A stretch of DNA of 64,000 bases from Bacillota bacterium (lineage in GTDB: Bacteria; Bacillota; Negativicutes; Sporomusales; CTSoil-080): assembly GCA_017889635.1 (NCBI GenBank), contig JAGGAC010000001.1:1-64000 (forward strand), in the 5' to 3' direction. The notes beneath the pieces were generated by a model. It saw nothing but the letters and a program-made list of their open reading frames with translations. It searched no databases and was not told the origin of the DNA. The position numbers and the translations under genes are program-made. Positions 40,362 to 62,693 of the stretch are shown one piece after another; positions within the stretch are counted from its first letter, which is position 1, and each line of letters opens with the position of its first letter.

Positions 40362-40424
40362 GGGGCAAAATAAAACAACTGTCGCACTAATTTTTTTAGT
40401 GCGACAGTTGTTTTATTTTGCCCC
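40362..40424 (-). terminator. Perfect 29-base hairpin after small ORF 1
   Basis: The arms 40362-40390 and 40396-40424 are perfectly complementary over 29 bases (inner part AACTGTCGCACTAA) around five T. It begins two bases after the stop of the small ORF and lies on its transcribed side, so it most likely ends that transcript. Its length and perfection are unusual for a simple terminator. Confidence 0.75.
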
Positions 40425-40426
40425 TT

Positions 40427-40525
40427 TTATTTGTATTCTTTAATTCGGCGTTGAAGTTCTGCGTATGAGTAGGGATACAAAGCGGTGGGCGTATATTTTG
40501 CAATAAGCTCAAATAACTTATTCAT
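40427..40525 (-). CDS. 32-residue peptide, small-ORF family member 1
   Basis: Not a listed gene type. ATG at 40525, 32 codons, TAA at 40427. AAGGAGGA lies 6 bases before the start. Recognisable blocks are FELIAKYTP and YAELQRR. Sixteen of 32 residues are identical in all three family members, and the peptide is basic with a hydrophobic N-terminal half. No signal peptide, cysteine pair or known toxin/antitoxin pattern is seen. It is a complete unit: promoter, ribosome site, ORF and a perfect hairpin. Function unknown. Confidence 0.75.
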   Translation of the reverse strand: MNKLFELIAKYTPTALYPYSYAELQRRIKEYK

Positions 40526-40553
40526 TTATATCCTCCTTACTGTTGATGGGTTA

Positions 40554-40690
40554 ATGATAACAACTGGGACAAATATGTGTCAATAATTATTTTCCGTTAA
40601 TACCAATGATCCTTTATTCAAACTATTGCGTTGACTCAGACTATTGCAAATAGTTTACGAAGTTTACTACATTAGGAGTTTTTGAAAAAC
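40554..40690 (-). promoter_or_regulatory. Promoter and conserved upstream block of small ORF 1
   Basis: On the complement, TTGACA (40583-40578) and TATCAT (40559-40554) are 18 bases apart. Directly upstream, TTAACGGAAAATAATTA is shared with the other two copies. Further out, ACTATTGCAAATAGT (40640-40654) is a palindrome of the type seen intact in copy 2. Confidence 0.75.
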
Positions 40691-40760
40691 TTGACATCTA
40701 TTCTTTGGAAGAGTAGGATATAATTAGTTAGCATAACCTAACTAATTATATCCTACTCTT
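40691..40760 (+). promoter_or_regulatory. Promoter and 23-base perfect palindrome upstream of marR
   Basis: Arms 40709-40731 and 40738-40760 are fully complementary (starting AAGAGTAGGATATAATT) around CATAAC; the inner part, TTAGTTAG/CTAACTAA, is a MarR-type operator. TTGACA is at 40691, and TAGGAT at 40714 gives 17-base spacing, so the palindrome covers the -10 box and the leader up to 5 bases before the GGGAGG site. Confidence 0.85.
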
Positions 40761-43357: not shown

Positions 43358-43402
43358 TACAAAGTATAAGCGGGAGTTGCCAACTCCCGCTTATACTTTG
43401 TA
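43358..43402. terminator. Perfect 22-base hairpin between convergent genes
   Basis: Arms 43358-43379 (TACAAAGTATAAGCGGGAG...) and 43381-43402 pair perfectly with one base between. It can end transcription from both sides; a T-run is missing. Confidence 0.7.
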
Positions 43403-49677: not shown

Positions 49678-50346
49678 CCCTTCTCATAGTTCATGAATAC
49701 TTACTATAAGCAGTAGATCACTCCTTTGGAATAATAGTGAAAATTCGACTATATTCACCAATTTATAAATTTTTTAGAAATTTCGACAATTAATGTAAAA
49801 GTCCTTCGCGAATTTTGTCGAGCTGACTCAAAAGGGAGGTAGACTATATGAAAAGGAGTTGAAGACGAATGTATGGGCGATGTAAATTTTATTTGGGGAA
49901 AGAAATGGTAGTTATCGATTACTACTAGTGGTTGTAATATGCGTAATACATAATATTTTAAGTGAATCAATAAAGAGGTCGGTAACCTGATTATTAGAGT
50001 AAAATAATAAAGTTTCCTAAATGCCAAGAATAGACTAGAATTACTCTTGGCATTTAGGAAACTTATTGTAAAAGGCGGAGGATTTCTTTTTAGTGAATTA
50101 AGTCTTTTTTCTACAAATCTTAATTGAAAGGTTACGTTGTCTTTAAAGGGTATGACCAAACTGCGTTCATCTAATTTACTTTGCTTGGAGGAATCGATTG
50201 AGTACAAGTTTGCTAAGAAAATATTCTGACAGATTTGTGGATTAAAGACAGATAATCTCAACTATGTTACAATGTATAAATATATTTTCATTAGTATTCT
50301 TTAGTTAATAGTTAGTATTCTGCTAGATAGTATTGGGGGTTAAATT
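49678..50346. other. Noncoding stretch with one long hairpin
   Basis: No supported gene; a 168-codon open frame on the complement has random-looking composition and no ribosome site. AAGTTTCCTAAATGCCAAGA (50010-50029) pairs perfectly with 50045-50064. A short ORF with an AAGGAG site (49869-49922, 17 codons) precedes it, which is too small to judge. Confidence 0.5.
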
Positions 50347-52547: not shown

Positions 52548-52577
52548 GAAAAAATCTCTAGCTGAAAAGCTAGAGAT
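52548..52577 (-). terminator. Terminator of small ORF 2
   Basis: ATCTCTAGCT/AGCTAGAGAT (52554-52563 with 52568-52577), followed on the complement by TTTTTT. Confidence 0.85.
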
Positions 52578-52584
52578 CACCATA

Positions 52585-52683
52585 TTATTTGCAAGCTTTA
52601 TTTTGGCGTTCAAGTTCGGCATATGAGTGGAAACATAAAGGGGCGGGCGTATATTTTACAATAAGCTCAAATATCTTAGTCAT
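52585..52683 (-). CDS. 32-residue peptide, small-ORF family member 2
   Basis: ATG at 52683, 32 codons, TAA at 52585; AAGGAGGA upstream. It contains FELIVKYTP and YAELER, aligned without gaps to members 1 and 3. Several codon differences are silent (third positions of Tyr21 and Ala22), as expected if the peptide, not only the DNA, is conserved. It ends with KACK. It lies between a phosphoesterase gene and the FHA/kinase cluster, with its own promoter and terminator. Confidence 0.75.
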   Translation of the reverse strand: MTKIFELIVKYTPAPLCFHSYAELERQNKACK

Positions 52684-52713
52684 TTGTGAATCCTCCTTAC
52701 TCTTTATGGTTTA

Positions 52714-52850
52714 ATGATAACAAAGTAGTCCTAATATGTCAATAATTATTTTCCGTTAATATCAATAATCATTTATTCAAACTATTGCCAATAGTTAATA
52801 AAAGTTTACTATTTTAAAAATTATTGAAACAATTTAGAAAGGTCAAATGA
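52714..52850 (-). promoter_or_regulatory. Promoter and upstream palindrome of small ORF 2
   Basis: On the complement TTGACA (52742-52737), 17 bases, TATCAT (52719-52714). TTAACGGAAAATAATTA is directly upstream. AACTATTGCCAATAGTT (52780-52796) is a perfect palindrome with a single central base, about 38 bases beyond the -35 box, a position suiting an activator. Confidence 0.8.
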
Positions 52851-56774: not shown

Positions 56775-56797
56775 TTAACTCATCATATGGCAAGGTA

Positions 56798-56850
56798 GGT
56801 CAAAACGGAAAAGACAGGCAATTTAGTGGCCTGTCTTTTCCGTTTTGGCC
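56798..56850. terminator. Terminator of the kinase cluster
   Basis: 22-base arms beginning GGTCAAAACGGAAAAGACA (56798-56819 with 56829-56850), one mismatch. Confidence 0.85.
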
Positions 56851-56852
56851 TT

Positions 56853-62135: not shown

Positions 62136-62166
62136 GAAAAAATCCCTAGCTACGAAGCTAGAGATC
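62136..62166 (-). terminator. Terminator of small ORF 3
   Basis: ATCCCTAGCT pairs with AGCTAGAGAT (62142-62165) with one mismatch, followed on the complement by TTTTTTCG. Nearly the same hairpin ends small ORF 2. Confidence 0.85.
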
Positions 62167-62178
62167 AGTTACGCCATA

Positions 62179-62277
62179 TTATTTGCAAGTGTTAATTTTG
62201 CGTTGAAGTTCTGCATATGGGTAGAAGTATAACGGAGCGGGCGAATATTTTGCAATAAGCTCAAATAACTTAATCAT
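62179..62277 (-). CDS. 32-residue peptide, small-ORF family member 3
   Basis: ATG at 62277, 32 codons, TAA at 62179; AAGGAGGA upstream. It contains FELIAKYSP and YAELQRK and ends with INTCK. It is closest to members 1 and 2 in the N-terminal half. It lies between bamA and the porin gene, with the same promoter, upstream block and terminator layout as the other two. Confidence 0.75.
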   Translation of the reverse strand: MIKLFELIAKYSPAPLYFYPYAELQRKINTCK

Positions 62278-62308
62278 TTGTGAATCCTCCTTGCCTGTTG
62301 ATGGTTTA

Positions 62309-62440
62309 ATAATAACAACCTATCCAACCTATGTCAATAATTATTTTCCGTTAATATAAATAATCATTTATTCGAACTATTGTAAATAATTAATAAAAGT
62401 TTACTGTTTTAAAAATTATTGGAAAGATTTAAATAATTGA
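62309..62440 (-). promoter_or_regulatory. Promoter and conserved upstream block of small ORF 3
   Basis: On the complement TTGACA (62337-62332), 17 bases, TATTAT (62314-62309). TTAACGGAAAATAATTA is conserved. The outer palindrome seen in copy 2 is degraded here (AACTATTGTAAATAATT on the plus strand). Similarity to copy 2 continues to about 62430. Confidence 0.75.
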
Positions 62441-62522
62441 GTGAATGATAGTGTGAAAGTAAAGGATTGCCTCAATGTACTTTTTGGGGCCGAAATGTTA
62501 AAATATCGCCAGGATATTCCGG

Positions 62523-62577
62523 ATAAGACACGCCCAAGCAAGACTTTATAAGAAAGATTTGTTTGGGCGTGTCTTAT
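62523..62577. terminator. Hairpin in the porin leader
   Basis: ATAAGACACGCCCAA (62523-62537) pairs perfectly with 62563-62577. It lies 117 bases before the porin start and follows no plus-strand gene after 61923, so it may be a leader structure. Confidence 0.6.
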
Positions 62578-62693
62578 CTTTAAATACTTTAAGTACTAGA
62601 GGCACGAATGAATCAAACAGTAAATTAAGGAGGGGTTTGCGTATTATCAAAATATTTCCATTTGCACAAAGATTAAAAAAAGGGGAGGGTACA

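Follow-up and report, generated by a model that had tools for sequence, protein, structure and literature searches.

Several kinds of short bacterial peptide come close to the genes described here. Type I toxins (Fst/Ldr, Ibs, TisB) have about 20-40 residues and several copies per genome, with a strong promoter and a terminator. Staphylococcal phenol-soluble modulins and delta-toxin are leaderless, short, amphipathic peptides with several co-regulated paralogues, and the precursors of AgrD-type cyclic autoinducers are short, with an amphipathic N-terminal helix and a charged tail. In addition, lineage-restricted families of bacterial small proteins (sORFs) are catalogued in sORFdb (PMC11796252).

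We analysed a family of which three copies (c1, c2, c3) lie in one stretch of 64,000 nucleotides (the window). The family is like type I toxins in length, copy number, strong promoter and terminator, but its peptides have no transmembrane segment, the window copies show no consistently placed antisense promoter-like site, and the leader is short. With phenol-soluble modulins and delta-toxin it appears to share short, amphipathic, leaderless peptides and several paralogues under common control, whereas its central proline stretch would break the helix, and neither a family match nor a sign of export can be read from its sequences. Short length, an amphipathic N-terminal helix and a charged tail also recall AgrD precursors; unlike AgrD, the peptides have no invariant mid-peptide Cys/Ser, no NCBIfam match and no AgrB domain beside the examined copies. 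Compared by description, sORFdb-type families agree with it in several points: fewer than 50 residues, intergenic position, a promoter and a Shine-Dalgarno site of their own, absence from the family databases and a narrow range. The family belongs with the orphan small-protein families, and what is unusual is that each genome holds several dispersed paralogues sharing one long control element found nowhere else. Annotation libraries miss this small-protein family, which is specific to one lineage, numbers about five copies per genome and lends itself to testing. Should the copies prove to be expressed jointly, the condition that induces them would point to both their regulator and their role, and would make visible how orphan peptides increase in number and diversify within a single bacterial family.

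The window genes and their control block

Three minus-strand ORFs of 32 codons, as the earlier note had described, were recovered by translation at 40427-40525 (c1, MNKLFELIAKYTPTALYPYSYAELQRRIKEYK), 52585-52683 (c2, MTKIFELIVKYTPAPLCFHSYAELERQNKACK) and 62179-62277 (c3, MIKLFELIAKYSPAPLYFYPYAELQRKINTCK). Their alignment is gap-free with 16 invariant residues, and all three match the family profile (c1 at E 4.5e-16). The likeness of their DNA is far beyond chance (c2 vs c3, E = 1.9e-80; c1 vs c3, E = 8e-46). On the same strand, the Shine-Dalgarno sequence AAGGAGGA is present at 40531-40538, 52691-52698 and 62285-62292. The upstream block TTAACGGAAAATAATTA, which had been reported as identical, is so in 3/3 window copies. 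Block alignment, promoter model and promoter scan together place the control block with its promoter at 40553-40672 in c1 (TTGACA 40578-40583, TATCAT 40554-40559), at 52713-52815 in c2 (TTGACA 52737-52742, TATCAT 52714-52719) and at 62308-62410 in c3 (TTGACA 62332-62337, TATTAT 62309-62314), all on the minus strand. The TTGACA and TATYAT promoters claimed before score 11/12 and have TG ahead of the -10 element. The proposed terminators were also borne out, lying just 3' of the ORFs of c2 (52553-52578, GATCTCTAGCTTTTCAGCTAGAGATT plus TTTT) and c3 (62141-62166, GATCTCTAGCTTCGTAGCTAGGGATT plus TTTT) in the terminator scan; the c1 ORF is followed by a perfect 29-bp hairpin (40362-40424, minus strand), which escaped the simple consensus terminator scan and was found by hairpin search.

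Throughout the family the control block aligns in ten copies over 104-124 bp with a mean column identity of 77%, and at its end stands a strong promoter of the sigma-A type (TTGACA-like, 17-18 nt, TGnTATYAT). In the two genomes that carry the family, the promoter model has just ten strong matches, with E from 1e-18 to 1e-26, and each of them precedes a family ORF or a relic of one; no control block of comparable score was found elsewhere in either genome. The next-best match (E 0.007), beside an aspartase/fumarase-like gene, was judged to be chance. Because the same block stands before the paralogues and nowhere else, we infer that they are co-regulated, one shared condition or regulator switching them on together.

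The block exists in a long form (c1 and the sister genus) and a short one, seen in c2, c3 and the copies on contigs C40 and C41 of the same genome, from which about 18-20 nt inside the block are missing. The two forms suggest that one repeat was lost or that the paralogues are of mixed ancestry; self-similarity within the block is not significant for repeat units (12.3 vs 11.2 +/- 1.3 when shuffled). An operator search in the block gave pseudo-palindromes not above shuffled columns. Comparison with the 15-bp 7-1-7 operator of Fur/PerR gave 10-11/14 in most copies, the C40 copy not counted. The Fur/PerR sub-box does not occur generally in intergenic sequence, and feoB upstream regions spoke neither for nor against such an operator. 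Perfect matches to GAWAATNRTTATTGA in the window's own genome occur at the five units and once inside an ORF. A perfect 20-bp inverted repeat (ATTCAAACTGTTTAAAATAG / CTATTTTAAACAGTTTGAAT, 14 nt apart) precedes the ORFs on C41 and C40 (L068, L069), where it overlaps the control block in its upstream portion; other copies hold only fragments of this repeat.

Further copies, relics and taxonomic range

The family had been put at three copies, a count that proved too low: the window's genome has five, and the second genus of the same GTDB family (hereafter the sister genus), represented by the MAG CTSoil_081 (G001, JAGGAD01), has four intact and two decayed ones. A DNA search of the window's own genome gave the fourth copy, on C41, where the family's control block stands before the ORF MEKFINYISKYPPVVPSGPICLYGIIKDTSI. 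A five-unit sequence model searched over the order gave the fifth, on C40 (ORF MEKFINFISKYPPVVPFGPIYSWGIYKDNSL), and several of the CTSoil_081 copies. The intact CTSoil_081 peptides are MKKLLELIAKYPAAPFPFFYGIGYKNSK, MNKILELIARYPAVVPFPFIYGNANKNTKK, MKTLLKLISNYPQTSPFLFLYGNSMKIENSKK and MKKILEIIEKYPPFMPFAYLYGNTKKIKF; the MKKILEIIEKYPPFMPFAYLYGNTKKIKF copy stands in tandem with the MKTLLKLISNYPQTSPFLFLYGNSMKIENSKK copy and has no recognisable control block. Every intact unit except g34b is a complete transcription unit with control block, promoter, leader, Shine-Dalgarno site, ORF and terminator, in which a leader of about 20-25 nt containing the Shine-Dalgarno site is followed by an ORF of 28-32 codons and then by the terminator. 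The terminator form CCGCTAATxTAGCGG-T7 is common to the C40 copy and copies of the sister genus. Both CTSoil_081 relics are on C113 (L073 7576-7702 and 11772-11885), 4.2 kb apart; they keep the block and the first codons, and a deletion that begins at codon 3-4 removes the rest of the ORF and ends within the right arm of the terminator. Their control blocks are near-identical to each other, and their promoters are almost undecayed.

The family is narrow in range, with convincing members found so far in two related genera. Outer-membrane genes and spore-forming relatives agree with the earlier note in pointing to Negativicutes as their class. Homologues in other Negativicutes genomes, the check proposed by the earlier note, were found with a nine-member peptide profile in CTSoil_081, which together with the window's genome held the only convincing members among 380 genomes of the class. 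In a phylum sample of 398 genomes in which G001 was not listed, the profile gave no member outside the window's own genome. Other Negativicutes and the phylum yielded weak peptide matches (E 0.002-0.007), which we put down to chance. The promoter model likewise matched only the window's genome and CTSoil_081 across the class, and a promoter pattern run over about 85,000 species genomes, possibly not including the window's own, returned CTSoil_081 alone. Among weak promoter matches across the order (E 7e-5 and above), two in G004, one of them the promoter of a peroxiredoxin, were taken as chance promoter likeness, and a match on contig C60 of G001 was rejected. Phages gave matches only at E 4-9, plasmids gave no match, and viral contigs scanned with the promoter pattern gave none. 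G002, a genome of the same genus as CTSoil_081 that is 65% complete, has no copy, and the family would therefore be dispensable.

Coding evidence and competing explanations

Selection on the peptide had been argued from silent changes in the window trio, and this held across the nine-member family but not for the trio alone. The trio has dN/dS of 1.08, 0.49 and 0.73 (Nei-Gojobori), with no purifying selection detectable, and in a frame test by column shuffle 596/5000 shuffles were as good, so that the silent-change argument is too weak by itself. Over codons 2-13 of the nine members, similarity was 2.67 vs a shuffled mean of 1.31 and only 1/5000 shuffles was as good; the corresponding count was 1/5000 for the four sister-genus copies by themselves and 0/5000 for four divergent members taken as a subset, figures that are indicative since the test treats paralogues as independent rows. 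Other frames and the reverse strand scored below the N-terminal reading frame in the same test, and third codon positions vary most (12, 8, 19). The C-terminal half evolves fast and shows no signal of frame conservation in the trio. A dual-function RNA, one of the roles put forward earlier, found no backing: the RNA bodies of the intact copies are no stabler than dinucleotide shuffles (z -0.8 to +2.3), and the only Rfam matches, none of them credible, were of eukaryotic small-RNA models to perfect hairpins and stayed below threshold. Together, the nine-member frame test and the unremarkable RNA fold favour a translated peptide with its N-terminus under selection, and we consider it very likely that the family is real, translated and restricted to its lineage, with one control block common to its members.

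Throughout the family the N-terminus is conserved and the C-terminus variable. Residues 1-11 have a hydrophobic moment of 0.57-0.73, and the peptides carry a net charge of +1 to +4. As the best 19-residue hydropathy is only 0.3-1.2, there is no membrane span. Prolines near positions 12-17 split the peptide, and the amphipathic helix is not continuous. The AlphaFold model of c3 has helices at 2-11 and 19-31, which gives a hint only of two helices around a proline hinge, global confidence being low (pLDDT 71, pTM 0.25). The statement that no such family was known agrees with our searches: Pfam, NCBIfam (up to E = 1), PADLOC and, for the window copies, PHROGs gave no match, and PDB sequences gave chance-level matches only.

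The reading we prefer, with a probability of roughly 0.55, is that of lineage-restricted, jointly controlled, stand-alone small proteins that dock on the membrane or on a partner protein. The figure is no higher because this role, which is probable, is less sure than the existence of the gene family. On this view the product would stay in or at the cell. Its residues 2-11 would fold into a short amphipathic helix (MxKLLELIxKYP) that binds either the membrane surface or a partner protein and is ended by the proline stretch, and the variable tail would make the paralogues differ in specificity, after the manner of small regulatory or stress proteins. Counted against it are the two copies that lost the ORF yet kept an almost undecayed promoter, the trio without detectable purifying selection, the fast evolution of the C-terminal half, G002 without a copy, the negative operator search and the low-confidence structure model. 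The main rival places the site of action outside the producer: after export or release the peptides would be signals or small amphipathic antimicrobials or surfactants, with a conserved N-terminus that serves for export or for contact with membranes and a fast-changing C-terminus that determines specificity. The positive charge, the amphipathic start, the division into constant and variable ends and the many strongly promoted paralogues under the same control block all suit such a peptide, but a hydrophobic signal-peptide core is absent, precursor families in NCBIfam or Pfam are unmatched, there is no invariant Cys/Ser for ring closure in the family alignment, and no transporter, peptidase, receptor or modification gene recurs beside the examined copies; we regard it as unlikely. 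Rather unlikely, too, is a bolder proposal of a dedicated peptide regulon, in which a single regulator would control the dispersed paralogous peptides and no other genes, acting through an element of about 105 bp reserved for them; constant at the N-terminus and variable in the tail, these would be a new Negativicutes class of signalling or antagonistic peptides.

The relics that kept the block and lost the ORF, and a control block better conserved than the ORF, are what would be expected if the unit acted as DNA or RNA, the block titrating a regulator or the transcript being a small RNA, with the ORF incidental. This is improbable, given the N-terminal frame conserved across nine members (1/5000) and the absence of a stable RNA fold and of a credible Rfam match. 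We give as little credence to the idea that the unit is a DNA repeat, passive or selfish, which multiplies by duplication and whose peptide does nothing for the host: relic copies, dispersal at unrelated loci and patchiness (none in G002) speak for it, but terminal inverted repeats and target duplications are not seen in the alignments, the 3' ends are not common to all copies, and the reading frame is conserved across genera. Most improbable of all is that the ORFs encode toxins of the type I toxin-antitoxin kind, with an antisense RNA to silence each one. Their size, dispersed multicopy distribution, own strong promoter and terminator, and dispensability would fit, but a membrane-spanning segment is absent, the leader of about 20-25 nt leaves no long structured leader, and antisense promoter-like sites are weak or placed differently in each window copy; no plus-strand promoter-like site has a common position in the three, in a scan that would miss weak or unusual promoters.

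Flanking genes and long hairpins

The copies had been described as unconnected to their neighbours, and indeed the flanking genes differ between the examined copies and nothing recurs as a system. In the window the neighbours are SIR2/MarR (c1), metallophosphoesterase/FHA (c2) and Omp85/unknown (c3); the FHA gene has no homologue in the sister genus. Other intact copies are flanked by HXXEE/MFS, CoA-disulfide-reductase-like/DUF4291, unknown/histidine kinase, aminotransferase and unknown/UbiD, and the relics by zinc-ribbon, PocR-domain kinase, FMN-binding and sigma-factor genes. No AgrB domain was present among the scanned neighbours. A leader-peptide attenuator was ruled out because the genes that follow c2, c3 and the C40 and C41 copies are on the opposite strand. 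Histidine kinases lie downstream of two different units, which we took as chance.

Long hairpins with arms of 22-29 bp that are 88-100% complementary occur in the window at 40362-40424, 40709-40760, 43358-43402, 50010-50064, 56797-56851 and 62522-62578. These six are mostly intergenic and are probably bidirectional terminators. Two perfect long hairpins bracket c1, and the C41 ORF is followed by a similar one.
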